A DNA stretch of 64,000 bases from NCBI GenBank assembly GCA_950295325.1, contig OX485805.1, positions 57,996,758 to 58,060,757 on the forward strand, read 5' to 3'. The notes under the pieces were generated by a model. It searched no databases and was not told the origin of the DNA. It worked only from the letters and a program-made list of their open reading frames with translations. Positions within the stretch are counted from its first letter, which is position 1. Every line of letters begins with the position of its first letter. Origin of the DNA: Polytrichum commune (lineage: Eukaryota > Streptophyta > Polytrichopsida > Polytrichales > Polytrichaceae). Made by a program: the position numbers and the translations under genes. Below, piece by piece: positions 2,936 through 64,000 of the stretch.

Positions 2936-3137
2936 AACGTCAAAATGGAATTTGTCAAACAAGCATACACACTGCTTGATTGTAGATTGTGCGGATGTCG
3001 GAGGAGCTGGGCAGGAGTTTAAAAGGTGGATTTGAAGTCGAACGTCAAATGGAATTCGTCAAACAAGCATACACACTGCTTGTTTGTAGATGATGGTTCG
3101 GGTGTCGGAGGAGCTGGAGAGGAGTTTAAAAGGTGGA
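2936..3137. repeat. ~100-bp tandem duplication upstream of HMA gene 1
   Basis: Copy 1 (about 2936-3030) and copy 2 (about 3041-3137) share the same order of words: CGTCAAA..TGGAATT, GTCAAACAAGCATACACACT, GTCGGAGGAGCTGG and GGAGTTTAAAAGGTGG. TTTAAAAGG is weakly TATA-like, so the duplication could have doubled a promoter-proximal segment of the downstream gene. That role is only inferred. Confidence 0.75.
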
Positions 3138-10764: not shown

Positions 10765-11480
10765 GGGGGGGTGGACTGTTCATACAACATGCGAAATGAT
10801 GTGAGTTAAGAAGGGGTGTTACTTAAGGCATTAGCATACACGGTATACATAAGGGAGAGGTATTATTTTTCCCTAGTTTGTACATTTAGAAAGGCTATGA
10901 AGAAATTTGAAGTAAATGTAAATGTAAAAGAGGGCGCCCTAAGGTTTAGAGAAAAAATTGACAATACATGTGTTAGTTTCATCTAGTTCATGTTTTCATC
11001 CATTGTTGTCATATGGTCGTAGTCCTCAATGATTACCTTGCCCATTTGTATTAGAGTTTGCATTTGAGTTCTAGGTTTTACATTATGAAGGCTCTTGGAG
11101 TGCTCATGGGCTTCTTTGAGTTTTTCTCTTTGGATTGTGGCTAGGATATTGTGTTCTTGTCTTTGCTTGTTTCATGAAATCATTGAGTGACATGCTATGG
11201 ATGAAAAAACATTCAATGAATTTCTCATTGGAAAGTGAAAATGAATTGTATATGTAAGAAAGGCCTATGTAAGTCATGATGTTTATTTTGTATATGTAGC
11301 GGAGGCATTTATCACGTTAGATTGAAAAGCTTAGTCTAAATACATGAGTCCATTTTCTAGCATACTGTTGGCACATATACATTTGTTCTTCTCTATAAAC
11401 TTCTCATATATAGGGGGTTTAATTTCATAATGACCCACACGCTTCATTTAGGTATCCAATGAGAGTCCACCCCTTGGGCC
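10765..11480 (+). repeat. ~0.7-kb dispersed repeat, copy 1 (includes right arm of the inverted repeat)
   Basis: The sequence aligns collinearly with 20900-21605. Shared words include GTGGACT..TTCATAC, AAGAAGGGGT, CATACATAAGGGAGA, CCTAAGGTTTAGAG, TTCATCCATTGTTGTCATAT and ACATGCTATGGATGAAAAA. Its last ~130 bp also recur at 29583-29715, and 10885-11350 recurs inverted at 9586-10035. It is probably an old transposon family. No transposase is seen. Confidence 0.7.
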
Positions 11481-11818
11481 ACTCATCCACTAGACTTTGG
11501 TGGGAAAAAGGACAAACATAGATGAAATTAGGTGGGGTAGGGTTTGTATGTGTCAACCAACCACTATTATCTTATGTATTTAGTGTACGCATGGAAGTCT
11601 AGTGGCCCATGGTCACATCACTCCACATTTTGAATGCGACTAGAATGTGGTTGTTTGGTTGCTTTTGTTATCTTCATGAGAACACATCCAACACACTATA
11701 GTCGGTTTATAGAATATAACACACTATAGAATATGACACACACTATAGAATATAACATCCAACACACTATAGTCTAGAATCTAGTGGGTCGTCAACGGAC
11801 ATGGGAACCCACCCTAAG
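11455..11818. mobile_element. Possible degenerate TIR element related to the one at 33.0 kb
   Basis: A weak inverted similarity joins the start (CCACTCATCCACTAGACTT) to the complement of the end (CGACCCACTAGATT). The same CCCANTAGATT word lies in the termini of the clearer element at 32983-33393. A short CACACTATAGAATATRACA unit repeats around 11690-11770. Boundaries are approximate. Confidence 0.35.
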
Positions 11819-12770
11819 CAAGCTTGCAACACTGTCGTCTTGGATCAGAGTTTAAAATGGGTGTTAATACCCAATAAAAGAGGGCTCAACCTTGAAACCA
11901 AGCTTCTGGAAGCTAGGCACATGGCAAGGTCAAAATTCTTTTACCTTGGCTTACTAACTTAAACTTTGATTTGAAACCGGTCTTGTCAAACGTGTGTGGC
12001 CTCCACATGAAAGAGGGGCCACACTGGGGGGTTCAACCAGGCCCAACTGGACCCCCCCCGGTGTGGTCAACCTATGAGACAAAGGTGGAGCCTGAGTTTC
12101 TAAAGGGCCTACAAACTGGGGAGCCCCCATACGCAAATGCTTTTACCCCGCTGTAATAAATTTTGAGAATCTTGTGAAGTTATGTATAGAGTCAAAGTAT
12201 AGTCACTAGGAACATTTCCCTAGTGTAAATGCCCTTAAATACAAAAGAAATATTTCAAAAGTTATAAACATTCATATGATTTTATCCTGGCAAATGACGT
12301 AATTTCTCATGCTTTTGAAGATTATTTCATATACTAATCAAAATTGGTGGCAATAGAATAATCTTGAATAGTTTATTTGAAATAACAATTGATTTCTAAA
12401 TAGAATTGAACCAAGACCAAGTCTAGAATTACGACATGTTGCATTGTCATATGGTAAGATTCTCCGATAGAAGCCTATGGTGAGATCCACTTGGTGGGGT
12501 TCCACTTCCCACAACATCCAATATATTGTAGCCATGCCACTTGCATTTCAGATGAGGAGATTATCCTCTACTCAGTTGAGATTTGGGTTTAGTTATTTAT
12601 TTATTTATTTATTGATGTCTATCATGTTCAGAGATTAAAATTAGTTATATTGTGTGTTATGACTACTTTTGCTGACTACACTACCATGATATGAAACCCA
12701 GGGTTACTATGAGATTGTTAGCAGATCCAAATTGAGGTCACAGTAGCCAACTGCCCCATAATTTTCAGAG
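11819..12770. other. Intergenic DNA, no gene seen
   Basis: AT-rich with a GC-richer patch at 11990-12140 (runs of CCCCCC/GGGG). A TTTA microsatellite lies at about 12591-12612. No coding frame is supported. Confidence 0.45.
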
Positions 12771-42679: not shown

Positions 42680-43428
42680 CAGTCCACCCTCGATAAATGT
42701 TACACTTATAAATGTTAACTCATTATATTTGTTAACAAAATCGTACTCCCCTCATATTGCTAACTAGAATGTTAACTATATCACTGTATTCGTTAATTTG
42801 AGACTTTCTCTTGTCTCAAATTAATATATAGACCACAACAACATGGTCTAATGTTTGGGTCGTCCTACCTAAACCATCTTGATATGAGTTCTTAATTGCG
42901 TTCTTGATATGAACACCCGCTTCAAAGTATTTGCATCTTACAACATTCTCCAATATCTGTGTGATTTTATCCGTGTTCTTATATTTGTAACTATCTCAAA
43001 ATGCCAAAAAAGTCCCAAATTAACAAATGTAGTGATCTATGTTAAATGTTAACAATAATTTACTCCCCTCTTTGTTAATTTGCCACTTATAAATGTTAAC
43101 CTACGAAATACATCCAATATTGTGTGATGACATCCATTACATTGACTCACAACCTTTCAAAGTGGCAAAAGCCACCAAATTTGACTTTTGTGATCAAATT
43201 ATTCATCTGGACTATATTGATTCTTATTTTGTTTCATAAAAATAAAAGATTGATTTGATACACATATTTTATATATGATAATTTTTCAAAACTATCCCTC
43301 CATAATTGTAATGAATTTATATTTGTTAAGCATTCAAAAAGCTCCCTTTATAACTGTTACAATGTTAACTCACTATAAATGTTAGGAAAATTTTACTCCA
43401 AAGCCTAACATTTATAGAGGGTAGACTG
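42680..43428. mobile_element. 749-bp pogo/Tc1-mariner-like non-autonomous transposon
   Basis: Left end CAGTCCACCCTCGATAAATG then TTA. The complement of the right end is CAGTCTACCCTCTATAAATG then TTA. The element is flanked on both sides by TA (42678-42679 and 43429-43430), the target duplication of the Tc1/mariner/pogo superfamily, and the CAGT terminus is typical of pogo-like elements. Many internal TAAATGTTAAC words. No transposase is present. A fragment of its interior (CGTTAA..TTGAGACTTTCTC..GTCTCAAATTAATATAT) recurs at 59430-59470. Confidence 0.85.
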
Positions 43429-47288: not shown

Positions 47289-49262
47289 TAACAGCCTTAT
47301 GATGCAGGGAGATACAGTTGCTTAAATCGAGCTCAAACAAGTTGCAAGTCTTGTCACAGTTCCCTTTTTAAGAACATCAACCAAGTCTAAGATTAATGGT
47401 CAACATCTCACCTTGCAAACTTAGATCTAATTGCTTAGTAGTAGTAATCGAGGTTGCGAGTTGAACCAAATTATGTGTGTCACCAGAAATCCTGGAGCAG
47501 ACACAGTGAATGGTTCTGCTTGTAAGAATCGATTCTGTGCAAGTGCTCGAAGAACAGTTACAAAGCAAGCCACTGTAATGGCTCTCTGCAAATATAGAAA
47601 TAAATTTGTGATGAACAGATGGAAACCCTGTCTATCAAAGGTATTCAACCCAAATTTCAAGCTGAATTTGAAAACATGAGCGCTCATTGAAACTCTGCTT
47701 TTTAATTTCTGAGTTAACTTCTAGTTAGTTTGCAGGTGAGATTTCCAATTGGTCAAATAGCACAAGTGTCTTTTAAAAAAAATCTGGCCTCAGAGTATCT
47801 TTCTATATGAACAGGTCCCTTTTATCTCCACTGGACCTGGAGTTTCTGGTGGACGGATCCATGTTGAGCTCAATGTGGAAAGAAAACTCTGAACCATTTA
47901 AACTTCATTCTGTGAGATTCTGTATCAATCTGTCATACCCATTGTTATTTGGATTTGAAGTTTTCATTTGTCCCTGACATACAAACTGCATATCTTATGG
48001 TTACATTTTCAAATACTGTAGAGTGATGTAGCTAATTTCCACATTGGATTGAGTATGGTCTTGACCAATATGGATACAACACATGGCAAAATGCTTTTAT
48101 AAATTATTAGTTTGTGTTGAACTAGACAACACCCTACAATATCATGGCACATATGTTTTATTTAAGTATATCTAGACATATTTTCAAAATATGGATTTTT
48201 TTGTTGTTTCAATTCTATCATAGGATTCTATAATACACTTCTAATGTACCTAAATATTAAAGAAGATGTGTGAATTCTTAGTGATCATTACTTGAACTTT
48301 ATGTTATTAAAATATGATTGAGAATTTTTAAGAAAAAATTATGCTATATATATATATGTTGACTAGTGAGAACACAATCAAAACAACTCCTATAATATCA
48401 TGATTATCAACTCCACATATTCTATCAAAGGATCTTACCATACAATCTTTTCGTAGGATCCTATGATGGAATTCAGCATGTTATGATTACGGACTTGGAT
48501 TTAGTCCAACTTTATTTAAATATGTGTTACATGGAAGACATCATCTTGAATTGAAAGTCCCACAAATTTCAAGTGAGTTATTTTGAGAGGTTGTTGTTTT
48601 GAATGAACTCCCACTCTTATAGTTATCCTAAAATTCGATTGAAGTTTTGGTTGGGAGTTGGTTGCTTTGCATACAAGATTTTCCATGTTTTGTAAGGCTT
48701 TTATACATGCTTGGAGTCGGTGTGGAGGCCTAAATAAAAACATTCTATATTGGCTCTTGGAAGTCAAACTCAATTTAGCAGCTCTAGTTGCCATGTCAAA
48801 ATGAATTTGGTCCTGATGTAGATTGTTTTCCGTTAAAACCTCCACACCAACTCCAAACATGCATCAAATGATTCAACGTCAATCGGTTAATTCTCAAACT
48901 CAGCTGGTTCATGTGTAACTAGCAGCCGGTTCCTCCCAGACATAGCCTCCAACGGTTCTCAATAGCAACACTATATTCGGTAATTGGAGACTTTTTGTTG
49001 ATTATGAGACTATATAAGGATGCGCATTTCAAAATTGGACCAGTAATGACGACTAAAAATCCCATATGTATAATGGTATGCTACTATTATTATACATAAA
49101 GGCATGGAAGTGAACAAAAATGTGAGGCATACATGAAAATAGTTGTGTATGAAATGACAACTCGTTATGAATGGAAGGGAAGGTGCGAAGAATGAATGGA
49201 AGTTTAATGAATTAATTGGGATTGAAATACAATTATAATGGAAATACCATCAATGTCTTGAG
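47289..49262. other. Intergenic DNA, no gene seen
   Basis: AT-rich with short frames only (up to 114 codons at 48516-48860, no motif). It is the last AT-rich stretch before the GC-rich island. Confidence 0.4.
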
Positions 49263-49305
49263 TAACTTGGAATAACTAGTGTGACATCGATGCTATTCCA
49301 AGTTA
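49263..49305. repeat. Hairpin at the left edge of the GC-rich island
   Basis: AACTTGGAATA (49266-49276) and its complement TATTCCAAGTT (49293-49303) form a perfect 11-bp stem around a 16-base loop. Base composition changes from AT-rich to strongly GC-rich directly after it. Confidence 0.6.
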
Positions 49306-50024
49306 TTTTCATACCCACCAACGATCGGACTCGGAAGATGCGGCCTTGAGGGCGTGCCTATCCAAGGAGGACGTGGAGGAGGGCCGGGCACCAAGCGAGC
49401 GGGTAGCCACCTGCGAAACAACGTCACAGGAAGATAAGAATAGGAATGGAGTGGGAAAAATAATGAGGGCGGTTTGGGATGGGCGCTCGTAAAGAGAACG
49501 GCACGCACACGGAAGACAAGCAAAACAAAAGCGGCAAAGGGGTTTAGGGTTGAGGAGGGCACCTTGGCTGTGGGGACGTCCATGCGGGGAACGGTAGGAA
49601 CGAGGGGGGCGTCGACGGGAGCATCCGGAGCCGATGGAACTATTGCACTGTTGGATGGCGGGGGGGAGTCGAGGCGTGGAGGAACGGAGTCGGCGGGGGA
49701 GGTGTGGCAACGGGGGCCTTCCATGCGGAGACGCCGGCTCGGCCCACGACGAGCGACGGCGTCGTCCCTCGAGGGTGAGAGGTGTCCCAAACGAACGAGC
49801 GTCCGTTTCTCCTTGGAGAGGGGGGAGGGCGACGGGGCGTACGCGCGGGGGACAAGTGCTGGGGGCGGGCTGTTGACGACGCCGTCGTCGATGCCGACGT
49901 CGCGGGAGTAATTCCACGGCCGAGGCCGCGTCGACCGCCGAGAAGTGGTAGAGGGATGGCATTTGGAAGTCCGTGACGTCGCGAGAAGGGGATGCCGGGG
50001 GCGAGAGGGGACGGGAAGGGCCAT
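49293..50024 (-). CDS. Pro/Arg/Ser-rich open region, uncertain gene
   Basis: A 243-codon frame in GC-rich DNA on the minus strand. Codons ~1-150 are rich in Pro, Ser and Arg (for example PPPSNSAIVPSAPDAPVDAP) and the end is hydrophobic and unconvincing. The other two minus frames are also open for long stretches, so openness alone proves little. It lies 144 bp beyond the 3' end of the FCP1-like frame and could be an extra exon, a separate disordered protein, or non-coding. No family recognised. Confidence 0.25.
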   Translation of the reverse strand: MALPVPSRPRHPLLATSRTSKCHPSTTSRRSTRPRPWNYSRDVGIDDGVVNSPPPALVPRAYAPSPSPLSKEKRTLVRLGHLSPSRDDAVARRGPSRRLRMEGPRCHTSPADSVPPRLDSPPPSNSAIVPSAPDAPVDAPLVPTVPRMDVPTAKVPSSTLNPFAAFVLLVFRVRAVLFTSAHPKPPSLFFPLHSYSYLPVTLFRRWLPARLVPGPPPRPPWIGTPSRPHLPSPIVGGYENNLE

Positions 50025-50167
50025 CGACTACAGGGGCGTCGCATATGGGGGCAGACTATGGGCAAGAACAAGAACAAGAACAACAAAAAACAAAAACAGA
50101 CATCCAAAAACAGAGCAAACATTAGATATGTGAACCACATGATAACAAGCAAACACATGGAGGCATT

Positions 50168-50933
50168 TCAAATCAATTTATTGAGTTTGGCGAGCCTCAT
50201 GATGCTCTTATATACATTATCGCGGGGGCTTAGCGCCGCATTGCCGAAGGGGTTGGACCTAACAAAAAATGGGATGCTACCGGCGTGGAGCACGAGCCTT
50301 CTAAGGTAGGGGGCTAGCCTATCGACCAAAAATGTGTCTTGCCTATCGCCGGTCCAAGTGTCCGGGAAGATGACGTTGCCCGGGGGGTTCAAGACGCTCT
50401 TGGTGGGGCTGTCGTCGATGAGGAGGGTGTTTTCAGGAGTCGGCCACCACCCGTGGGGCGTCCCATGCAGACGGGGGACGCCTTGCCAGAGTCTTGAACG
50501 GAGGACCTTGAGGAACTGTTGTCCTCCGCCTCGACCGCCAAACTTGGGCACCGGTCGGCCTTTCTCGTCGAGCAGCTCGTCGCAGTCCTCTTGGCCGAGG
50601 ACGAGGCAAGGGCTCGGGAGATCACGGAATAAGAAGTGGACGATGGGCTCCGTGTTGTCCATGACCATGGAGCTCCACACAACGACGTGGGCGAACTCGA
50701 CCACCTCGCGAAGGAAATCCCACAGGCCGGGACGGGCTCGGACAGCCTTGCGGTTAATGAGGGTGTCGAGCTCGCCGTCGTAGTCCCTTTCGTCGGGGTG
50801 ACGGAAGGGACGCGTGGGGACCCTTGGGATGTGTTGGGTGTGACACAACACCCCGTTGAGGTCAAAAACGAGGAACGGTTTGTTCTGGGTTCGAGGTCCA
50901 CTGGTCGAGGGGTTGCGACCTATCTCCGGGGGG
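50168..50933 (-). CDS. FCP1/NIF-type HAD phosphatase domain (partial gene)
   Basis: A plausible acceptor (ATCACAG, minus strand, AG ending at 50934) opens an exon that runs to a stop at 50168-50170. Near its start is HAD motif I, KPFLVFDLNGVL, as in the plant FCP1-like branch: the nucleophile Asp is kept but the second Asp of the classical DxDxT is Asn. Motif II is VVVWSSM. The late motif NTLLIDDSPTKSVLNPPGN with the DD pair matches plant NIF/FCP1-like proteins. These enzymes dephosphorylate Ser/Thr in proteins. With DxN the activity is uncertain. Upstream exon(s) could not be placed, and the space up to 51.5 kb is filled with palindromes. It lies downstream of, and on the same strand as, the ParB/methylase-like gene, but whether they share a transcript is unknown. 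Confidence 0.75.
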
Positions 50934-51072
50934 TCCTGTGATGAACAACGCGACTAGTTTAATTCTATGATCCAATAAAGAAATTGTTGCGTTGAAAATA
51001 AAGACGATGCATTATGGGAAAAGAGGAGGAAGTGAGGAGGGTGCAAGGAGAATGTTCAGAGGGGCACAATTG

Positions 51073-51586
51073 CGAACGACCATTCGTGAATGAAGGCTGC
51101 GGGGCGGTGCGCATCATTTACGAACGCGCGTTCGTGAGCGCGGATGCATGCATATACGAACGCTCGTTCGCGAAGGATATCAAGACGGGGTCGCATAGTT
51201 TTACGAACGAGCGTTCGTGAGTGAGGTGTGCATGCAAAGAATGCAAGGACGCACAAGAGCACAGACAACACAAGACGCGAGAATATGCAATAAGTTGAGG
51301 GGATGCGAGCAGAGATCGTCTGCTCATATATTAATTCGGTGAATATGTACATTTGTCTCGCGTGATAATCTATCACAATTTCCTAAGGAAAAAATGCAGT
51401 GTCCTACAAAATTGATCGGCCCAAGCGATCACGTAGAAAAATGCTCGCGCGGGCAACGTGATGTCGATGGAGTTGAAGCGCCAAGAACACAACGCGGGGG
51501 GTTAGTGATATTACGAACGCGCGTTCGTAAAACATTTGGCATTCTCAGAGATGAGTTACCTCTTTGATTAACGAACGCGCGTTCGT
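51073..51586. repeat. Palindrome cluster, 3' of the ParB/methylase-like gene
   Basis: Perfect 16-bp copies of ACGAACGNNCGTTCGT lie at 51120-51135 (centre CG), 51203-51218 (AG), 51513-51528 (CG) and 51571-51586 (CG). A one-mismatch copy is at 51156-51171 (CT) and a degraded copy at about 51073-51088. The last site overlaps the end of the 3' exon of the large gene. Confidence 0.95.
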
Positions 51587-52963
51587 AATATCCATTGGGG
51601 AAGCAGCCTCTGGATCCATGACCTCCGCTGGACGCTCCTCCTGAGACGACTGGGTCTGTTGGATGAGCTCCACGTCGTCGTCCCCGCCCAGGTCGAGTCT
51701 CTCCATGCGGACATCCTCCATGTGCGCGGACGGATGTCCTTCCTGGTCAGAGCTCTCCACGACCATCCCACGCGAGCCTGCCGAGTCATTGGGGCTCCCC
51801 TGCGTTTCCTCCACAATGACCATGTCAGTGTGTTGCGCAGTGTCATCGCCCCGCCTATCTAGAACCCTTGGGACGACGGTGAAAGAGGCCGTGTCGGTGT
51901 CTGTGGGCAATCCTACCCTTGAAGGGGGAGGGGTGAGGACTCCCGGACCTGAAGATTCACGAACGCGCGTTCGTAAATCTTCGTCCTCCCTTAGCGCCGC
52001 CGTGATTGCATCGTGGGAGGTTGAGGCGGCCGCCGTCACTTCCGGGGGCAATGGACTTCCCGCCGGCGTTGGGTGTGGCGCTGTTTGGTGGGAAGGCCCT
52101 CCTTGGTACATGACTGGAGGTGGGGGCTGTGAGGGGTATCCTCCAGGGGGGAAGGGGTAAGGTTGCTGGACCGGCGCAGAGAGGCTCTGCATGTTTCTGA
52201 GCATCTCGAAGATGGCGTCGGTTTTGGCCGCTGAATCCCTCAGCTGCTCTTGCAGCCTGGCCAGATGCTTCGCGCTCTCCTCCTGTGCTGCAGCCATCTC
52301 CTCCTTCATCTTCGCCTCCAGCTTGGCGTTGAGCTCAGCGACGGTGAGTGCCTCCTCCTTCACCCGCTTGTTCTTGTCGTAGTCCACGCCAAGCTCGGCC
52401 ATGATGTCCATGTCCCCCTCGTCCTCGTCCGAGACCTCGATGATTGCTCCCGGCGGCAACTCCACGTATGGAGTCTTCTTCATCCTCCTCCTCGTGTTGC
52501 GGAAGAGGTCCAAAGATGGCCACGAGCGTTGGTCGAGGATGTCCAGGGTTTCCATCTTCGGAACCACGGCGGGCCTTGGAGACTGTGACGTCGAGCATCC
52601 GCCTGGCGTTCCGAAAGGCTCTGCAAGAGATGTTCTCGCCGGGAGGACATCCAGGGTTGTCCCCGCGGACGACCCGGTGTAACCACCCGGTGTCCCTTGA
52701 GGGTCGGGAAGATCCGTCGTTGGCGGCAAGATCCGAAGTGGGGGTACGTCGAAGGACTGCAGAATGGCGTCCACGTTGGCGGAGGGGGTGGGCTCGTCGT
52801 CCTCAGAATCGTGGAATGGTATGCCCTCGTCGGCGGGCATACTGAAGTCCATCCTGGGGACAGAGATGTCCTTGAGGTCCATCGTCGACGCCTTCGCACG
52901 GTGGATCTTGAAGTCTTCTTCGTCGATAGCGTCAATAGATGTGTTGACTACGAGACCCATCAT
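51545..52963 (-). CDS. Exon 3: acidic, disordered tail with coiled coil
   Basis: 472 codons plus stop, beginning MMGLVVNTSIDAIDEEDF after acceptor CTCACAG. It is rich in Pro, Asp, Glu, Ser and Thr and likely disordered. About 190-260 residues into the exon a charged heptad-like stretch (ALTVAELNAKLEAKMKEEMA, HLARLQEQLRDSAAKTDAIF) predicts a coiled coil, which suggests oligomerisation. Then come Pro/Gly/Tyr-rich (PYPFPPGGYPSQPPPPVMYQ) and acidic segments. Two copies of the 16-bp palindrome fall in the frame. One at 51959-51974 is translated LRTRVRE. One at 51571-51586 makes TNARS in the last 13 residues. A donor-like GTAACT at about 51554 leaves open that the exon ends just before the stop. 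No known family. Confidence 0.6.
   Translation of the reverse strand: MMGLVVNTSIDAIDEEDFKIHRAKASTMDLKDISVPRMDFSMPADEGIPFHDSEDDEPTPSANVDAILQSFDVPPLRILPPTTDLPDPQGTPGGYTGSSAGTTLDVLPARTSLAEPFGTPGGCSTSQSPRPAVVPKMETLDILDQRSWPSLDLFRNTRRRMKKTPYVELPPGAIIEVSDEDEGDMDIMAELGVDYDKNKRVKEEALTVAELNAKLEAKMKEEMAAAQEESAKHLARLQEQLRDSAAKTDAIFEMLRNMQSLSAPVQQPYPFPPGGYPSQPPPPVMYQGGPSHQTAPHPTPAGSPLPPEVTAAASTSHDAITAALREDEDLRTRVRESSGPGVLTPPPSRVGLPTDTDTASFTVVPRVLDRRGDDTAQHTDMVIVEETQGSPNDSAGSRGMVVESSDQEGHPSAHMEDVRMERLDLGGDDDVELIQQTQSSQEERPAEVMDPEAASPMDITNARSLIKEVTHL
51959..51974. repeat. Palindrome inside the coding sequence of exon 3
   Basis: Perfect ACGAACGCGCGTTCGT, in frame and without disrupting the reading frame, giving the basic heptapeptide LRTRVRE in an otherwise acidic tail. 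Confidence 0.95.
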
Positions 52964-52994
52964 CTGTGAGAAGAGAGCAATAAGGTCAGAAAAT

Positions 52995-53163
52995 ACGAAC
53001 GCACGTTCGTAAACATCAAAGCGTAGCGTGCAACGAGTTTCAAGCATTACATTACGAAGGGGTTATGTTTACGAACGAGCGTTCGTAAACATGAATGCGT
53101 CACGTGCAGAGACTCTGAAACAATACATTGAGAAGTTGATTAACTTTACGAACGAGCGTTCGT
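52995..53163. repeat. Three palindromes in intron 2 of the ParB/methylase-like gene
   Basis: Within the 222-bp intron 52964-53185, perfect copies lie at 52995-53010 (centre CA), 53071-53086 (AG) and 53148-53163 (AG). They make up over a fifth of the intron. Confidence 0.95.
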
Positions 53164-53185
53164 AAATGGAGTCTGGACAACTTAC

Positions 53186-54504
53186 CATGGCCGCATACAT
53201 GAATTTGGAGCCTCCACATATGTTGTATACCGTCTCTCCACTTATAACAAGACTCTGCAATACAGAGACGTAGAACTCCATCCTGAGTTCCATGGCGGGG
53301 AAGACGGTGTAGAGGGTCTCTTGCAGCAGATCCTTGGGAGGGGGATGCGGGATGCTGTAGATTTTCTTGAACGTGTTGTTTGCCTTGATAGGCGGTCGCC
53401 CATCCCTTAGCTCATTGTACGTCAAGAAAATCAGGCTGACCGCTCCCACCTGCTTGTTGCCCCTGGCCTCGTTGATGGCCACAATCCCCTCTGTCTTCGC
53501 TGGCACGTACGTGCTGTGGAAGATGTTGTACTCGAATTTGATCTTCTGCTCGTACAGCTCTGTGACCACAGACAGCTTCTCTTGTTCGACTATCCACAGC
53601 CAAACGTGTGGCTCCCTCATGGCCGGCGATTTGAACTCCATGAACTTGGCCATGAAAGGGTTGTAGAAGGGAATGTCCTTCCCCCCCTGCCTTGACGCAC
53701 CCGGGATCCCCCTGAAATCGATGAGGGCAAAAGGGCAACCCCGTCGATCCTCCCTCACCTTGGCCCTGCTGATGGTGTCGTCCCACTTGGAAAATGTGAC
53801 CCTCTCCACGCCGGAGGTGATCACGCAAAACCTTGCCACTCCTTCGAATGTGGCGTTCCTTTTCCTCTCCAAAAATTTTAAGTACAGCATAACCTCATGG
53901 GGATCCGTGTCGGTTTCCTTTTGTTCCCCTTCAACTTCAAAACCGAGGCGTGCTCCTTGACCAGACTGCGCATGGAGGCTCCGTTGATGTTGTAGTCAAC
54001 CTTTAACATTTGCCATTGCGGCCAGATGATGTCGCCGTCGACTTCAAAGATTCTGTACTCTGGTACGAGTACGCTGAACTCTCTCATGGCTGTAGTCTTC
54101 AGCTTCCGGTGGTCACACCACTCTTTGATAGAGTACGTGCCGGGCTTGTGCTTTGGCCTCTTCAAAAAGATCTTGGGATAGGGAAGGGTTCTTCCCACGG
54201 TGTTCCCAAGAACATGAATCGCACACCTCTTCAGCTCTGACTCCGTCAATCCCTGGAGGTGTCTAAAGAACTCCCTCAGTAGTGGGGGCGCTTCACCGGT
54301 TTTTTCCGTGCTGTACTTCTCCTCCGTGTCGGGGTTGACCAAATCGCCCGAGCTGTGTGCATCAAAAAACTGGGTCCACAAATCCCATGTGTCCCTGTTG
54401 CAGCAGATCAGTCTGAGCTCACCCTTCAGCTCAAGCACAGACTTTGTGGTGGTGGACTTCATATCGATGGAAGAGAATTTGTCTACCATCGCGTCGCAAA
54501 ATGC
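53186..54504 (-). CDS. Exon 2: methyltransferase-like domain, with a frameshift
   Basis: Starts AFCDAMVDKFSS after acceptor TTTTGTGCAG and ends GGSKFMYAAM at donor GTAAGTTG. The first ~180 residues are a predicted globular region (WDLWTQFFDAHSSG, ELKRCAIHVLGNTVGRTLPY). Near 53945 the reading frame shifts. After it the sense frame reads EVEGEQKETDTDPHEVMLYL and continues to the donor. In the second half, CPFALIDFRGIP (about 53737-53702) sits where beta-class DNA amino-methylases have motif IV (DPPW/Y), and SGETVYNICGGSKFMYAA (about 53245-53189) where they have motif I (DPFxGxG). The catalytic DPP(W/Y) is replaced by DFRG, so catalysis is doubtful. The fold call is inference from motif order. 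Confidence 0.55.
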
Positions 54505-54538
54505 CTGCACAAAACAAGATGTCAGTATTGCACATAAT

Positions 54539-54612
54539 ACGAACGCACGTTCGTAAAGCACGTCAGTAATTGATGTTTTCGTGAGTCCAACACTTTACGA
54601 ACGTTCGTTCGT
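54539..54612. repeat. Two palindromes in intron 1 of the ParB/methylase-like gene
   Basis: Within the 116-bp intron 54505-54620, perfect copies of ACGAACGNNCGTTCGT lie at 54539-54554 (centre CA) and 54597-54612 (TT). The second starts within ten bases of the splice donor on the minus strand. Confidence 0.95.
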
Positions 54613-54620
54613 AAACTCAC

Positions 54621-55913
54621 CTTCCATTGAGGAGACTGGTTCTTGGCGTTCTCCCTCTCCTTTGGTGGGCATCCGTGTGCCACCCAGACGTCTCTCGCAG
54701 CCACTATGTTAGCCGCCCACGAAGCCTCGAACGCCTTGATTTTGTTCCCCGAGTTCAGGAAGGTTGAAATCTTGCGCAGCTTGTCCCAATCGTCCGACCA
54801 GACCAAGAACGCCTTCCAGTACCGCAGGTCAGCCTTCAGCTCGTGCTGGAAGTTGTCGTCCTTGAGGATCTGTTGCGACGCCTCCAAGCTATGCTGACCA
54901 TCTATAATCCAGAATTCTCCATTCTGGATTCGCGGTCAATCCATCTCTGTCGGTCGGGATGTCAGCCCCTTGGGCATGACGCAGACCGTCTGCCTATCCC
55001 ACTTTACGTTGTTCATGAGGTTGTTGATCTGCCACTTCACCCCACCGCTCTCGCGAGACCTTACCACCCACTTGTTGGGGGACTTTTCGCACTTGAAGCA
55101 GTCCACGTTGAACGTGAAGTGGCGCCCCATGGGCCAGCAATCCTTTGAGTAATTATTGAAATCTCGTAGGATCTTTGTTGCCTTCACTGCATTTGGATTC
55201 TCACCCTTCTTTAAAGGGGTTGGCATCAGGGGAGGAGAGCTCACCTCAGCGCCCTCTGTTACCCCAGACCTCTCCATTTCGTCCCGGGACCTCTTCGATG
55301 GCGTGGAATGTCGGCTGGGACCCTCCGTCACCCTACTCGCGGAAGGCACCGGCCTGGGTACACTTCTCAATCCTCCTGCCCCGGATGCTGATGGTTTTCG
55401 TGGGCTCTTCTTCTTCTTGTTGGCTTCGGCGACCGCGCTATTGTACTTGGAGATATTCAAGGAAAGCGCGGCCAACTTCCTTGCTGTCCAGTACAAGCTC
55501 AGGGCGTACTTCGTGAACAGGTCCTTCAGGAAGTGTTTGGCATCAGCCACTACGTTATTTTCTGCGTATGTGTAGGAGAAACTATGTCTCCTGTACTCTA
55601 ACAGGAGGTTAATGTGATCCTTCTTATTTTTCATGTCTAAAATCACATAATCTCCTTGTGCCTCAATTGATTCTACTTCCCAAGTCTTCATCTGCACCCA
55701 TTGCTCTGGCCGGTCCGGCGTTATTTCCAGCTCGTAGGTGAAGCGAAGACAGAAAAGACCGTCTGATGTCTTCTCTGGCAGTGCCGTCCATTCCCCAATG
55801 AAGTCCTCCTTCGGGACATAATTATCGTTTCCGTTGGGGTCGGACACTGACTCTGGTAGCTGATCTATCTGCACTGCGAACATCTCAATGGCGCTCCTGC
55901 TCGGTCTAGCCAT
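54621..55913 (-). CDS. Exon 1: N-terminal region and ParB-like DGQH domain, with an in-frame TGA
   Basis: 431 codons starting MARPSRSAIEMF and ending SPQWK at donor GTGAGT. Residues ~1-170 look globular (EFIGEWTALPE-like, WVQMKTWEVESIEA). Residues ~175-235 are Lys/Arg/Ser/Pro-rich (NKKKKSPRKPSASG, SKRSRDEMERSG) and could hold a nuclear localisation signal. After VKWDRQTVCVMPKGL comes GEFWIIDGQHSLEASQQ (~residues 332-348). The DGQH followed by a helix with small residues is the signature of ParB-like nuclease/sulfiredoxin-fold domains. Codon 326 is TGA, in the sequence GAT TGA CCG. A single C-to-T change from CGA, as expected at a methylated CpG, would explain it. The start at 55913 directly follows CTCTGCAG, so an upstream non-coding exon is possible. 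Confidence 0.6.
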
Positions 55914-55946
55914 CTGCAGAGCACATAAACATTTAGTATTGTGTTT

Positions 55947-56472
55947 ACGAACGAGCGTTCGTAATTGACAAGCAAATCATATATACTAATCAATGAACGC
56001 TGACTATGGGTACCCGTGAGGAGTTTTAATTATGTCTTCGCTGATTTCATTTACGAACGATCGTTTGTAAAGAATGTGGTTGCTAAGGTGTATTTGACAC
56101 AAGTTTACGAACGTGCGTTCGTATTGTTTGTAAACAAGTCCACCAGTTGTCCAGTGTTATCTAATTTCCACGAGGGTTGTTCGAATTTCCATGAGCATCT
56201 TCTAAATAGGTGAATTAATACTTTAGTTCTTAATTACGAACAATTACCATTAAGGGTTTGGAATATTATTATAGTTTGTGATTACGAACGTTCGTTCGTA
56301 TTTTTGTATGTTTCATTTGGATTTGAGGATTTGAGGATGTACAGGGTATAGACGAATATACGAACGTGCGTTCGTAAAAATGGAGGGTGAGGTGCGTATT
56401 TACGAACGCACGTTCGTATATGTTTGTGGGGTAAGGCATGTTTTCACGCCACATTTACGAACGAACGTTCGT
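55947..56472. repeat. Palindrome cluster, 5' of the ParB/methylase-like gene
   Basis: Perfect copies of ACGAACGNNCGTTCGT lie at 55947-55962 (centre AG), 56107-56122 (TG), 56284-56299 (TT), 56360-56375 (TG), 56402-56417 (CA) and 56457-56472 (AA). One copy with a single mismatch is at 56053-56068 (AT). Most are extended by TT or TTT on the left and AA or AAA on the right. They end abruptly at 56472. Confidence 0.95.
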
Positions 56473-57009
56473 AAATGTGGTCATCTGGGATTAGGAAATG
56501 GTATATTTATTTATATACATATACCCGTATGTATATGTATAGGTATATGTACATATACATATATATGTTGTTATGAATGTTGCGATCTGGCATTGTTCAT
56601 GATCCTGCAACTCGTGATCAGATTGATGAAACACAAGTGAAAAATGGAATCAGAACAAAATTGCGAGTCAGTGATTGATAGTTCAGAATGAAGAGGAAAG
56701 TGTTATTTCATACAAAACATGCCATACCTCATAATGCAGAAAACAAATCACAAGGAATTCATCAAACAACAATTTCAGATTGTGAAGGACTGATTTGTAA
56801 AGGAAACCTGTACTCACATTGAATTGTTGCACAGAAAACCTCCTGCCTCCTACTGAGAAATCCAGAAATCCTCACAAATGCACACCAAATTGTCTTTCAA
56901 AAGCGCTGAATTCGCTTTCAATTGCAATTTCACTTTGTCACACTCTCAAGCCTTCACAACTTTTATGCAAATCCTACACAAACCCTGATGTACACAACTC
57001 ACAACCTTC
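56473..57009. other. AT-rich intergenic DNA after the palindrome island
   Basis: A TATA/TATG alternating tract at about 56507-56570, then ordinary sequence. No palindromes of the island type and no gene. Confidence 0.45.
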
Positions 57010-57290
57010 AGAAATCTCAAGCTTTCTGAAACTCTCAAGCTCTCAAGCTTTCCTACTCTCAAGCTCTCAAGCTTTCTGAAACTCTCAAGCTCTCAAGCTT
57101 TCCTACTCTCAAGCTCTCAACCTTTCTGAAACTCTCAAGCTCTCAACCTTTCTAAAACTCTCCACTTCTCAATCTTTCTAAAACTCAAGCTCTCAAGCTT
57201 TCTAAAACTCTAAACCTCTCAAGCTTTCTATAACTCTCAACCTCTCAACCTTTCCTACTCTCAACCTTTCCTATTCTCAAGGTTCTGACA
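57010..57290. repeat. CTCTCAAGCTTTC minisatellite
   Basis: Tandem units combining CTCTCAAG(C/T)TTTC, CTGAAA or CTACTCTCAAG, with a longer ~50-bp higher-order period in the first half. Degenerate at the right end. Confidence 0.85.
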
Positions 57291-57477
57291 ACACAACAAA
57301 ACAACATACACAATGACGCTCTAAAATTGGCAAGGGCTTCGCCGCACCTAAGAGCTCCTCTCCCCCTCTGCTCCAAATGACAAATGAGGAGGAGAGAGAG
57401 GGGCGCGGGGAGGTAGTCGGCGCCGCTAGGGTTTCCAAGCGGCAGCCACGTGGCTAGTGGCCACTGGCTAGGGCTGG

Positions 57478-57670
57478 GATGGGGGAGGGGGATGGGGATG
57501 GGGATGGGGATGGGGATGGGGATGGGGATGGAGGGAATGGGGAGGGAATGGGGAGGGGATGGGATGGGGATGGGATGGGATGGGGGGGATGGGGGGGATG
57601 GGATGGGGAGGGGAGGGGATGGGATGAGGATGGGATGGGAGAGGGGGAGGGGGAGGGGATGGGGATGAGG
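57478..57670 (+). repeat. (GGGGAT)n-type G-rich tract
   Basis: About 190 bases almost free of C on the plus strand, starting with seven GGGGAT units and degenerating into GGGGA and GGGAT variants. Dozens of G runs of three or more make it a strong G-quadruplex candidate. The long open frames across it are composition artefacts. Confidence 0.9.
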
Positions 57671-57919
57671 GGATACCATGGGGACATGGAGGGATGAGGG
57701 TTCAGGAAAAATGAAATAGGAGATGGGAGGAGCTTAGTTTAGGGACATAAATTTAACTTTCCGTATCCCCTTAGTACCTCGACATATGGATTCCTTGTAA
57801 ACATATATAAATGACTCAATTTGAATTGTGGAGAGGGGCTATCTGATTCTCCACAAGAGGTGGATGAAAATTCAATTTTCAATACGATGTCATTAATTTA
57901 ATGAGGTGTTAGCTTGAAC

Positions 57920-58267
57920 CACCCTTAATATGATATTTAGTGTTAGATACTCTAAATACAAACGCATAGTACACTAAATATCACTAACCCTATGAAAGTA
58001 ACTACTATTCATTGTGAACTCAAACACTTAATTTCAACTATAATGGTAATATGTGGATGTCGCATGCACAAATTTTGTGTAAGGAAATTAATATGAAAAA
58101 AACAATTAACAATGATAAAAGCATAAAGGACATGGTAGTAGGAAATGTGGTGGCCCATTTAATATGTCCAACACTAATTATCAAATAATTGAAATTTAGT
58201 GTTGACCATGATAGTGTAACAACACTATATTATACAATCAAACACTAAATATCATATTTAGTGTAGT
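57920..58267. mobile_element. MITE family B, second copy (~348 bp)
   Basis: Left end CACCCTTAATATGATATTTA then GTGTTAGAT. The complement of the right end is ACTACACTAAATATGATATT then TAGTGTTTGAT. The interior matches 31202-31517 (CTAACCCTATGAAAGTAA, AACTCAAACACTTAAT, GGTAATATGTGGA, TCCAACACTAAT). Confidence 0.8.
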
Positions 58268-59951
58268 GTATTATAGCCATGTGGTCGCATGTTTTGCTAG
58301 TAGTATCAATAATTGATAGTATGAGCTTCCCATAAATTAAGTTAGTGCGATATGGATTATTTAGGAGTCGATATTGTTTGTGTATATAATGCATTGAAGT
58401 AACGATCTAAACCCTAAGCCCGCAAACCACATAGACAACTTTCACAAACTCTATACCCTAACCCCAAACCCTAAACCCTACATCTTTTTATCTTACCAAC
58501 CTTTCTTATATATGGCCATGTTGTGGTCTATGCGCATCATGTCAAAATGGTCTACGAATGTTGGTTCGATTGGAACTTGCCTTATTTGGGTCATAGCAAC
58601 TATAATAATCTAGACTCATGCCAATAATTGTCATTTTGATATAAAACATTGGTTTAGGGGGTGAAGAATGAATTTTGAAATGCTAGCCCTTTCACCTTAA
58701 TAGTTTTGAGTGCAATTTGATCACAAAATACACACTTAGTCTTATTATAACATGAATGGTTTAAGACTTCAACTTAAATCAACAGTTTAAGCTATGGTCA
58801 TGCACATACTTCTTGTTGCAAATAATACAAATATATAATTGTAAGTGCATACTATTGTATGCACCATTCCAAATTAGTTATCCATTTCCACACCATGGTG
58901 GACCTAAAGTGAATTTCCAATAGGACGTCAAGTCATTTAATTAGGTGTCAACTTGAACTAACGATCGAATACTAGTGCATTAAACTTTAATTTTCACCAA
59001 TGATGAATTGCAACAATGAGTCATATTAATATGGGGCGATGTTTGGTGAGCCTCCAGTTCCAAATGTCCTCAATCTACCTAACACAAGCCACTATGGATT
59101 AAGCGACTTTTTATTGGTATTCATGCACTTGGTGACCATATTACAAGCATTTTTTTATGTGAATCATATGATACCTACAATTTTAGGGGATTCCACAATA
59201 TGTTCTTAGCCACTCTTACCTCATTGTGTGTGTGAATATATATATCACTTAGACCTTCATCAATTCACTTGGACTTCACACCTTAGTCGCAAATAATTTA
59301 ATACTCAATGTTAACCCATCAACCCATATATATATAATATAATAACCCATATATAAAATAGTAAAATATAAATTATACACATATATACACATATATACAC
59401 ATATATATATACATATATAACACTATATTCGTTAAATTGAGACTTTCTCTAGTCTCAAATTAATATATGGATCAAACAACATGAAGATGCCTGAAACTAT
59501 ATTGTCAACAATCTCAAATATATTAAATGTTCTAATATCCCACACCTATGATGTGCGGACATAAGCACATATGGTAGAGCACTCAACACCAACTTCATCA
59601 ACAAAAACACATTGGGTAGAGCACTCCAAACAAGTTTCACCCAAAAATATATATATAATGATTTCTATTATTAGCATGCTCCATAGAATATAGACATTGC
59701 AACATACAAAGTGCATGTAATAAATGCATATTTTTTCAATGGACAATTTAGTCCCAAACTTAATAAAAAAATGAACTTCACATTTGTATTGAAATATAGT
59801 AAATGGATATTCATCCAACTCCAAAACAATATAGTATTCGTAAGTTCTACCCAAACTCTGCCCCAATTTTGAAGAGCACACATATGAGTAATATATGTTC
59901 GTAGAATTACTGTTTACACTATAATCATGCTAACACAATCCTACCAACTTC
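58268..59951. other. Intergenic DNA with telomere-like and AT-microsatellite patches
   Basis: AAACCCTAAACCCTA-type sequence at 58449-58476 resembles the plant telomere repeat. A TATACACA/TATATA microsatellite lies at about 59325-59420. A fragment of the pogo-like element interior lies at 59430-59470. No gene is seen. Confidence 0.5.
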
Positions 59952-61436
59952 TCATTCAACGTGGGTTGCTTCTTCTGCGATCCGAGCAAGGTTGTCTTTT
60001 GCAAAAGTTATGTACTTTTGAGGGATGGACACTGATCCACTATGATTTTTCCGTGGTTTCCATGCTATGAATATGGAATCTGTATCTACCCAAGATGGAC
60101 CGTGCTCAGAATCCACCTTCCACCGAAAGTTAGGGTTTGTATCCCAGCCTGTATAATGCCGAATCACATCTTCATTCCTTGCCGTCGGTCGGTAGTACTC
60201 CACTTGTATTTGTCGAAAATGAGGGCTGGAAGTTACAAAATTGGGTTTGGACAAAGCTCTTGCCACCCACACTGGCTTCACATATGTCTCGTCTCCAGGA
60301 CGCAAAATGAGCATATATCCTTCATGACAATCCACTGCAATGCGGAAAGATGGTGGCGGACGACTACTAGCAGGCCCCACGTAATGGTCGTCCACATCAA
60401 ACTCCTCTCGAACCTCTCCATTTCCCAAAAGACTAGCCTCTGAAGCTTGTACATCGACTCGTGTTTGTGGCCAAAATCCATGCCTCAAAGTATGAGGGCT
60501 ATCTTGGTGGAGGTCTACCAAGGCGGCACGAACACGTGTCCAATAATGTATCCAACTCCCATAACGATGCCAACATGATCCGCCAACATCCGCTATCTTC
60601 AAACTCTCCCAATATTGTATGAAGCCTGATATACCTTTCAAAATATCCTCCAAATTCTTCATGGCTATTGGCTTACAAGGGCTAGGCTCCCCATCCGGTA
60701 ACATGGTCTTCCCATCCGCATCCACGCGCCACACAAGAAGACCCTCCGGCGGGCTCCAGTCTTGTGTCGTGCACAACAACTTGTATTGCATAGCCGGGAC
60801 ACCATCGTCACGCATGTAGAACCGGAATTGTTGTGCCTTCGTATGCCCGATCAATCGGTGAGCTCCACTTCGAATATAAGGTTCTATAAATGCCTTGAAG
60901 TCTGGCACCTCCTCAATCATATGGGGGGTGACGGGAACGTTCTCCAAATCCATGTACGACTTCATCAATAATGGGATTGTAGGAAAATCCTCCTCCCGCA
61001 ACTTCATGCTCCACCGCCCAAAAGATGCATCAATATCATCGTGCGTGTGGCCTACCAATAGGAAGGACACAAAAACCTCCTTGAAAATGCCTTTCGCAAC
61101 CAACAACGACCAATATGCAAATACATATCTGTTTTTATTGTCCTTGGCACAATTGTCCAATTGGACACGCAAAGTTGGAGGCAACTTCTTGGCAATCACG
61201 GGTTCATTGGGTGGCTCGGGCAACGAATGCAAGCATACATCTTTTCCATCCAACACCGCTTCATATAAAGGTGTTGAACCCGTGTTCTCAAATAACAATC
61301 CTGAAGAATAGGCTGGTGGTTTCTCTAAATCACGTAAAAGCCTTGCAAATGATCCTATCGTGTGGTTTGAATCCGCTGGATACAAATCAAGAGCATAATG
61401 AGCAAACTTGACATCACCGTGTCCATGTGCAATCAT
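59952..61436 (-). pseudogene. DUF7869-like transposon protein, C-terminal part
   Basis: 494 codons. It contains PPTLRVQLDNCAKDNKNRYV (second conserved Asp), SFLLVGHTHDDIDASFGRWS (the HTHDDID signature) and a long C-terminal region with Trp/Arg-rich blocks. This matches my knowledge of DUF7869 proteins, which sit in plant, algal and oomycete mobile elements and appear to have an RNase H-like DDE fold (the fold is inference). The first ATG overlaps the stop of the upstream frame by four bases (GAATGA), in the -1 frame. The sequence continues the same protein, so the break is a frameshift rather than a gene boundary. Confidence 0.65.
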
Positions 61437-62572
61437 TCTTGCAATGCCAACCCAACGTGATTAGCATCTATGTATGAATAAACCATTATGAAGGAATCCA
61501 TGTTCTCCAGTACATCACGGAATAAAAAACCACAACATTTAGGGTATGTCATGACATTGTTTCGAAGTTCACCTGTAACCGATACAGGCAACTTAAAAAA
61601 CCCATCCGTGGCCTTGATTCGATTTGCAAAACATGGGGAGGCTGTTTTGGCATGGTCCATTTTGTCATGGATGACCATAAGAACCTCCAAGGGCCTGGAG
61701 ATGGACAAAGCTCTATTTGTGTAGTAATCATTACGGTGTGCCTCTTGCATGTTTACGTGCTTGAAATAGTTCAATTGATGCGCTGCATATGACTCGGTAC
61801 CCATCGTGTGTGCATCCCGGAGGCGCTTCAACTTCTCGCAATTAGAGCACCTGGCAAATTTGTCCCCTCGTATTTTTGTAATGTATTCGCTAAAGTTTTG
61901 TTTCTTGATTGCACTTAATTTTGACAATGAAATTGGCTCCAACCCAATCTTCTCGCCAACTGCATTAACGTCCAACAATATGTCTTTCCATTTTGTGCCT
62001 GTGGGAAGAACTTTCTCCACAACCTTTTCACCGGTTGTGAGTGTGCGTGTTTTGTGCGGCATTGCATCAACAAGGGGGACAATGATGGTTGCTAGAGTTG
62101 CCGTTGCTTGCCTTGTTGCTTCCCTAGGTTTCTTTAAACCCACGTTCCCATGGTGACGGGACCGGCGGCCTTCCTTGGCATAAGCAGCTTGTCTATAGAA
62201 GTCCGCCTTCGACACACCGTGAATGGTGTACCATGCCTTATAACACACGTCTATGCTTTCAATGGTGATTACCTTGCGACCCGTCCCATTCACATGTATT
62301 GCCCTATGGACATCAAGTTTTTTTGTGGATCTTAGACGAAAATCTCCAAGCCACATTTCTTCACGGATGGCCTTCAATTTATCCCTTGGAAACAATTGGC
62401 AACAACAATGCACACAACAATCCTTTGTGGCAACTTCTCTTATGGACTCCTCCCCAAGCAGCCTTTGACGTTTACAATCAGTTGCAGATGGAGAAGGACG
62501 TGCCACAGTATCGTACTTTCTTTGACCCATGCGTGGCCGCATGTTTGATTGCATTTCCTTTTCGAGTTGCAT
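61433..62572 (-). pseudogene. DUF7869-like transposon protein, central part
   Basis: 379 codons. Features in order are a Cys cluster (CCVHCCCQLF, ~residues 52-61), a conserved KVITIESIDVCYKAWYTIHG block, CSNCEKLKRLRDA (likely zinc-binding, ~240-252), and VMVIHDKMDHAKTASP-like sequence (~300) that corresponds to the DGMDQSK motif carrying the first catalytic Asp in this family. It ends GLALQE at the -1 frameshift into the C-terminal part. Upstream, a TGA and one sense codon separate it in frame from the N-terminal part. Confidence 0.65.
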
Positions 62573-63200: not shown

Positions 63201-63712
63201 GAGGGTGGGTTTGGGTCGAGCAACCCAAACCTCGTGATAGGATGGGCCTGCTAATCCAGGCCCAACCCGTGACAGGGGTGGGTTTGGGTCGCTCGACCCA
63301 AACCTCGTGACAGGATGGGCCTGCTAATCCAGGCCCAACCCCTGACAGGGGTGGGTTTGGGTCGCTCGCCCCAAACCTCACAATGGAGGTGTGTTTGGGT
63401 TGTGCGACCCAAACCTCATGACAGGATGGGCCTGGCAATCCAGGCCCAGCGCGTGATAGCGGTGGGTTTGGGTCGCTCGACCCAAACCTCATAATGGAGG
63501 TGGGTTTGGGTCGAGCGACCCAAACCTCGTGACAGGATGGGCCTGCTAATCCAGGCCCAACCCGTGACAGGGGTGGGTTTGGGTCGCTCGACCCAAACCT
63601 CACAATGGAGGTGTGTTTGGGTCGAGCGACCCAAACCTCGTTACAGGATGGGCCTGCTAATCCAGGCCCAGCCCGTGAGAGGGGGTGGGTTTGGGTCGAG
63701 CGACCCAAATGT
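63201..63712. repeat. Array of nine 22-bp palindromes with an alternating second hairpin
   Basis: Arms GTTTGGGTCG and CGACCCAAAC flank a two-base centre (AG or CT). Copies lie at 63209-63230, 63282-63303, 63355-63376, 63393-63414, 63466-63487, 63504-63525, 63577-63598, 63615-63636 and 63689-63710, some with one or two mismatches. Spacing alternates between ~73 and ~38 bases. Longer spacers carry a second hairpin, GGGCCTGCTAATCCAGGCCC. The array lies ~130 bp upstream of the DUF7869-like gene, where transposon subterminal repeats are usually found. Confidence 0.95.
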
Positions 63713-64000
63713 CGCGCACCTCTCCATGAGGAGTGGCCGAAACACCATGGGCACAAGAGGGACCCCGGAGTGACACCCGGGACTTGTGGCGCCGTTGGTG
63801 AGAGGGCCCAAGTGATCCTAGTGTGGGTGAGGGCCCCGGGCGTTGGGAACGCCTCCCACCCACAAAGACTAGGAGGCATGAGGGTGAGGCCATGAGCTAT
63901 GCGTAGCTCATGGCGTGGTGATTCTAGAATGCTCAAGAACACCTCAATCCGAGGTGTGAGCTAGGAGTTATGGCCATTTGAGTGGGGTGCTGTCCCGGGA
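63713..64000. other. GC-rich DNA at the window edge
   Basis: Several short inverted repeats (GAGCTATGCGTAGCTC at 63894-63909, CACCTC..GAGGTG around 63941-63957). It may be the continuing end of the element with the palindrome array. It is cut by the window end and no gene is seen. Confidence 0.4.

Follow-up and report, generated by a model that had tools for sequence, protein, structure and literature searches.

The En/Spm protein TnpA is transposon-encoded, has short repeated subterminal sites and also affects methylation, and the ParB-parS system relies on a single conserved 16-bp palindrome as its inverted-repeat site. In Arabidopsis, sequence-specific anti-silencing by transposons is described for the VANDAL/VANC system (PMC5735166, PMC10398659), in which the VANC21 motif is the nine-base YAGTATTAY (PMC5735166). 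Here, we analysed a stretch of 64,000 nucleotides from Polytrichum commune (contig OX485805.1, positions 57,996,758 to 58,060,757; hereafter the window) in which a 16-bp palindrome, ACGAACGNNCGTTCGT, recurs within one transposon. Palindromes with ACGAACG arms mark a ~16-kb DNA transposon that has terminal repeats AACACTATATTCG and two divergent gene units, and related families carry other palindromes with a layout common to all of them: a 7-bp arm, two free bases and a 7-bp arm. These palindromes are a real, strong and family-specific site system of transposons. We lean, slightly, towards reading them as family-specific recognition sites of a transposon-encoded dimeric DNA-binding protein acting in anti-silencing or self-activation.

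Abundance, clustering and conservation of the palindrome

The window holds 16 exact copies of ACGAACGNNCGTTCGT at 51120-56472 and three near copies in the same region (Table 1), which reproduces the count of 16 perfect and three near copies made earlier from the letters alone (the sequence-only reading). That reading had seen no copy elsewhere in the 64 kb; there is indeed no exact copy in positions 1-48966, but a copy with one mismatch lies at 49791, outside the span. Its assertion that the density is far beyond chance stands, as 20 matches with at most two mismatches were found in the window against a mean of 0.05 in dinucleotide-preserving shuffles.

In the 408-Mb genome the ACGAACG palindrome has 5602 exact copies and its reversed-pattern control 4. 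The corresponding numbers are 10055 and 1 for the TGGGTCG palindrome, 1394 and 1 for ACGGACG, and 1254 and 0 for CACGGGYG, which makes more than 18,000 exact sites in one genome across the palindromes counted. Confinement of the motifs was judged genome-wide from 100 listed places for each of two motifs, ACGAACG and TGGGTCG, all on C1, and every one of these places has a neighbour within 1.5 kb. Even scattering over the genome, which had been set beforehand as speaking against the sequence-only reading, is thus not what these places display, and an ordinary microrepeat is excluded by the counts against reversed controls together with this clustering.

The window element aligns with a complete copy of the same family, copy D, at 82% identity. 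Of the 16 exact window sites, 12 have a perfect counterpart at the corresponding position of D, two carry one arm-base change there and two are absent. At the 12 position-matched sites, which were chosen as exact, the arms are identical in 168 of 168 positions, while the centres agree in 19/24 and the flanks in 134/224; within the window the centre bases vary (CG, AG, CA, TT, TG, AA). The earlier description of constant arms, a free centre and unshared flanks is borne out by these figures. Among one-mismatch sites, 25 of 41 differ by C>T or G>A; the sites do decay, by what resembles deamination. Four CpGs that have not decayed had been ascribed to each copy; CpGs are retained, but the C>T and G>A changes and the lack of local CpG sparing qualify that description.

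The carrier transposon and the placement of sites

Of the ACGAACG-family copies compared, two are complete and 99% identical to one another; D spans 16,147 bp, while the length of E is 16,094 bp. Both start with AACACTATATTCGGTATTTGGAGAC and finish with the reverse complement of AACACTATATTCGTTAATCGGAGAC, and both are bordered by 4-bp target duplications (ATTG and CACT, two of two complete copies); for all other copies only the left end lay within the DNA compared. A protein search with the window exon 53072-53995 scored 128 of 1123 candidates, about 20 of them with an identical score, and the family is of high copy number and apparently recently active. CACTA elements have ends beginning with CACTA and a 3-bp target duplication. 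Assignment to this group was considered as the end contains CACTATATTCG, and was rejected on the 4-bp duplications and an inverted repeat that starts AACACTA.

The left unit contains a ParB-like gene with exons e1 (DGQHS motif), e2 (with GGSKFMYAA at its end) and e3, and an open reading frame (ORF) for a NIF/FCP1-like phosphatase that has homologues at the TGGGTCG-family locus L038 (E=1.1e-13) and at L040 (tblastn). The possible likeness of e2 to a methylase is our own reading, with no library match behind it. The right unit encodes a DUF7869 protein, the putative transposase.

Copy D carries 24 exact sites, at 2845-7849 and 11219-12272 of its 16,147 bp, which lie in the left-unit introns, on the promoter side of the left unit and ahead of the DUF7869 gene. 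Between the outermost sites and the element ends there are 2.8 and 3.9 kb. With approximate limits for the coding sequence (47.5% of D), 23 of the 24 sites fall outside it (binomial 4e-6). A long open frame also covers the site at 2953, close to where e3 ends, and counting it as coding gives 2/24 (~5e-5, hand calculation).

Locus L017 (C1:638001-648000) contains 33 palindromes of the ACGAACG type, most of which form arrays with a spacing of ~33-110 bp. It also keeps the right-end terminal repeat, part of the phosphatase ORF at the edge of the locus and a short piece of DUF7869; no match to e1, e2 or e3 was found in the 10 kb read. It is an apparent deletion derivative, and its make-up would fit a parasite of a trans-acting reader, without demonstrating one.

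Related DUF7869 families carry other palindromes

Twenty pieces of DNA upstream of DUF7869 genes were hand-picked to span frame lengths, and are not a random sample (150 scored of 1491 candidates). One palindrome is repeated 5-15 times in 11 of the 20 when 6-bp arms are counted (3-15 exact 16-mers), and twice in L034. In all 12 pieces the repeated palindromes are centred on two free bases, and no recurring palindrome appeared in 200 Markov-resampled pieces. There are five arm sequences, all with G at positions 3 and 7: ACGAACG (three pieces), ACGGACG (four), TGGGTCG (two), ACGGGTG (one) and ACGGGCG (two, including L034). Tandem arrays were seen in L031, with 78-bp spacing, and in L026, with 97-bp spacing.

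When the five motifs are tabulated by locus, the table is diagonal except for a single ACGAACG site in each of L026, L027 and L039. These three loci belong to the ACGGACG family, a sister family, and their ACGAACG sites are fully symmetric, possibly the relic of a code switch. The DUF7869 family of copies X and Y has no ACGAACG site; the palindrome repeated there, both upstream and within the DUF7869 intron, is ACGGGTGNNCACCCGT. In a tree built from 22 DUF7869 rows the palindrome type (six labels) changes five times, which is the minimum and was reached by 0/200 shuffles, although near-copies in the tree make labels cluster in any case. L023 was left out of the tree with fewer than 200 residues aligned, and L034 was labelled ACGGGCG on two copies, the ACGGGCG group having weak support (63/46). 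The families behave as if each marked its own DNA with a private code read by its own protein.

Palindromes in homologous introns of different families

The left units of L038 (TGGGTCG), L039 (ACGGACG) and L040 (ACGGGTG) encode relatives of e1, with 33%, 42% and 24% identity to the window family, respectively, and of e2, with 34-39%, 54% and 26%. In the three families whose splice sites were read (window, L038 and L039), introns 1 and 2 both hold the family's own palindrome. Their positions match, the first intron following PQWK, PKWE or PKWQ and the second a YAAM or YAAL stretch. The intron sites are at 2652, 2700 and 4174 in L038 and at 2799 and 1303 in L039, in addition to near copies. In L040 a site at 5682 comes after the e1 match and another, at 4210, after an ORF weakly aligned to the end of e2. 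Intron 1 of L038 (2594-2730) is made up of three tandem units, in each of which a palindrome (one with a mismatch) precedes a 3' splice site resembling GTTGCAG.

In both families read, the exon that follows intron 2 has the family's own motif in frame, yielding LRTRVRE in the ACGAACG family and FGSTDPNP or FGSGDPNP in the TGGGTCG family (L038, 5421 and 5490). The equivalence of e3 between these two families rests on its position directly after intron 2, as tblastn gave no e3 match in L038. Since the in-frame motif is read as different peptides, each family seems to keep the DNA sequence rather than the peptide.

Features of the window

The features of the window are collected in Table 1. The left end of element 1 is intact and similarity to D can be traced as far as the limit given; its right end was not found, and element 2 begins at 59419. 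Two further TGGGTCGNNCGACCCA copies lie in the adjoining 10 kb (L012).

Table 1. Coordinates of transposon features and palindromes in the window
Feature	Position	Strand	Remarks
Element 1	48967..59316	.	ACGAACG-family copy; left boundary common to copies A-E
Left terminal inverted repeat, element 1	48967..48979	+	AACACTATATTCG; same end in A-E; reverse complement closes D and E
NIF/FCP1-like (HAD) phosphatase ORF	50168..50953	-	Left unit; Pfam NIF E=2.9e-15
Palindromes	51072..51218		51072 (2 mismatches), 51120, 51156 (1 mismatch), 51203
Palindromes	51513..51586		51513, 51571
Exon e3, ParB-like gene	51545..52963	-	Low-complexity, coiled-coil-like by eye; 3' limit approximate
Palindrome in exon e3	51959..51974		In frame, peptide LRTRVRE
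Intron 2	52964..53185	-	222 bp, GT-AG, three palindromes
Intron 2 palindromes	52995..53163		52995, 53071, 53148
Exon e2, ParB-like gene	53186..54504	-	C-terminal GGSKFMYAA stretch; frame broken in window copy
Intron 1	54505..54620	-	116 bp, GT-AG, two palindromes
Intron 1 palindromes	54539..54612		54539, 54597
Exon e1, ParB-like gene	54621..55913	-	DGQHS motif; frame broken near 54936 in window copy
Promoter-side array	55947..56472		55947, 56053 (1 mismatch), 56107, 56284, 56360, 56402, 56457
Element 2 end	59419..59431	+	AACACTATATTCG; TGGGTCG-family element, orientation opposite to element 1
DUF7869 ORF, element 2	59955..61460	-	Putative transposase; Pfam DUF7869 E=2.7e-42
Six TGGGTCGNNCGACCCA palindromes	63285..63707		Upstream of element 2 DUF7869 ORF

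Some other repeats were observed. At 42782-43034 there are two inverted matches to the element terminus (two and three mismatches), about 250 bp apart; this pair is perhaps a small non-autonomous relative and is weak against chance. Adjoining simple-sequence tracts, of the CTCAAGCTTTC type and the GGGGAT type, occupy 57015-57290 and 57480-57690, and plant-like telomere-type repeats occur near 58.45 kb. Parts of a repeat at the right edge of the window (63710-64000) are found two more times in L012, the adjoining 10 kb, and at ~96% identity in L001, L003 and L004; the repeat seems to be a different mobile element that is nested within these transposons.

Interpretation and alternative explanations

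If the palindromes are recognition sites of a transposon-encoded protein, a homodimer would read the two arms. The fixed two-arm geometry and the arms changing together point to a dimer formed by related proteins whose specificities have diverged. The reader would be element-encoded, most likely the left-unit ParB-like protein or, failing that, the DUF7869 protein. It would bind copies of the family that encodes it, at their promoters and introns; such binding would keep these copies expressed and mobile against host silencing. The left-unit protein is favoured because its gene is a second one, distinct from that of the transposase, and has sites within its introns, which is the VANC arrangement. 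The DUF7869 protein stays in play since X and Y have sites without a recognisable left unit in the stretch read. As palindrome type follows the tree of DUF7869, the only unit treed, the tree does not tell the reader proteins apart. Selection on the arms as a binding site, one of two explanations offered in the sequence-only reading, gains support from arms that are kept while centre and flanks drift, and from sites that travel with one family. The related families, with other arms but the same geometry in the same introns, also suggest binding sites.

Several results weigh against recognition by an element-encoded dimer. Copies X and Y have the DUF7869 gene and sites, but over the ~7.6 kb of upstream DNA that was read, a stretch that does not reach the left end, a left unit could not be recognised. 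Eight of the 20 upstream pieces (L018-L025, with 23-34% DUF7869 identity to X) have no repeated palindrome in 3.6 kb. With sites masked, 10 of 12 pieces have a lower CpG observed/expected ratio near the sites than elsewhere upstream, and past local hypomethylation near the sites leaves no visible trace. Because the sites decay by C>T and G>A and there is no masked-CpG excess, their retained CpGs are better accounted for by selection on the arms or recent copying than by absent methylation. The ParB-like exons have no Pfam match above cut-off, and comparison with solved structures gave no credible match; the best for e1 had E 0.062, and the best for e2 (E 0.0043) was to a tandem cytochrome construct, in which no stretch passed by itself. 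Profile searches of the element proteins found no known DNA-binding fold, and single-sequence structure models of the window proteins were uninformative (pLDDT 31 and 33).

Some further results bear on the proteins and on CpG content. Pfam scans of 16 ORF pieces gave only DUF7869 and NIF above cut-off, with no Mutator or VANC domain. The likeness to ParB is marginal: a PHROG ParB match spanning 36 residues (E=0.022) was obtained for L039 alone, and DUF6551 gave E=0.23, also in L039. The association of the palindromes with a ParB/methylase-like gene proposed at the outset holds by position, but the gene itself lacks a curated-family match above cut-off. In viral contigs 123 stretches matched a search pattern, and none is a relative of the ParB-like protein. 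Whole-element CpG, at 0.87 once motifs are masked compared with 0.47 for window positions 1-48966, looks favourable but follows coding content and was not counted as support.

One may speculate further that a ParB-like, partition-type dimer with a methylase-like partner loads on the parS-like palindromes of introns and promoters, spreads over the 16-kb element and shields it from methylation, and that at least five mutually exclusive codes stop cross-activation between families, making up an evolving repertoire of protein-DNA specificities; we regard this extended model as unlikely.

Alternatively, the DUF7869 transposase could itself bind these dispersed sites during transposition, for synapsis and family recognition. 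The motif type follows the DUF7869 tree exactly, X and Y combine DUF7869 and sites with no recognisable left unit in the stretch read, and L017 keeps 33 sites and the right end with only coding fragments in its 10 kb, all of which such a role would accommodate. Subterminal repeats serve as transposase sites in CACTA or hAT elements, whereas the outermost sites of D are not subterminal; the sites moreover lie in introns and on the promoter sides of both units, including the introns of a non-transposase gene, and we consider a purely transpositional role unlikely, if still worth weighing seriously. The positions on promoter sides and in introns would equally suit host transcription factors or insulator proteins exploited by the element. 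However, because each of the five arm sequences is private to one clade and all share one geometry, five host factors would have had to be recruited in parallel, and the strong clustering of the sites is a further argument against host factors, which makes their involvement improbable.

A role in RNA is conceivable in that transcribed palindromes with 7-13 bp arms could fold into hairpins for splicing or small-RNA control, and an RNA stem also predicts two-sided changes. Yet the one-mismatch sites (20 sense, 17 antisense and 4 other) have no G-U wobble skew, arrays are also found upstream of both units, and a two-base centre would form a tight loop; we give hairpins little credence. The other explanation of the sequence-only reading, a tiny palindromic element that multiplied by itself, corresponds to a neutral, self-spreading micro-element or recombination site. 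Such spreading could produce tandem arrays like those of L031 and L026, but the flanks in the window copy are unrelated, the positions relative to exons persist between families with only 33-54% e1/e2 identity, and the arms differ by family. We regard this explanation as highly improbable.

Comparison with known systems

Two features recall ParB-parS, namely inverted-repeat sites of 16 bp and the DGQH stretch, similar to that of ParB, in an encoded protein; the present system differs from it in the five family-specific arms, the free two-base centre and the residence in a eukaryotic transposon. Short repeated sites are shared with En/Spm TnpA, whereas the sites here are internal and the termini and target duplication differ. 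In the open-access literature nothing was found on DUF7869 and, among the papers listed, nothing relevant on the palindrome idea; a search for Spm/TnpA demethylation likewise gave no paper on it among those listed. Sola2 (PMC3627910) resembles the present elements in a 4-bp target duplication, short terminal inverted repeats and accessory genes in some elements; the CACT duplication found here is not of the AT-rich type described for Sola2, and the Pfam label here is DUF7869 only.

The closest likeness is to VANDAL/VANC. There too, a short motif is dense in the introns, promoters and other non-coding DNA of one family but rare outside it, the motif differs between related families (cf. VANC21/VANC6, PMC5735166), and arrays are partly tandem. 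In place of the nine-base VANC21 motif, the present sites have a 7-2-7 dyad layout of 16 bp, and extended arms can bring the total to 28 bp. The transposon, unlike a VANDAL, encodes DUF7869, makes a 4-bp target duplication and has no Mutator or VANC domain in the ORFs scanned. Binding of the motif and removal of methylation, as by VANC, would be predicted for the present system. Five presumed cognate pairs, with sites in the same introns in one species, would make the co-evolution of protein and DNA code directly testable, and such reader proteins could find use as programmable tools for the epigenome. VANDALs already exemplify the logic, while the kind of transposon, the palindromic geometry and the number of parallel codes did not appear among the papers that the searches listed. 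If an unrelated transposon does follow a VANDAL-like logic, anti-silencing evolves repeatedly.

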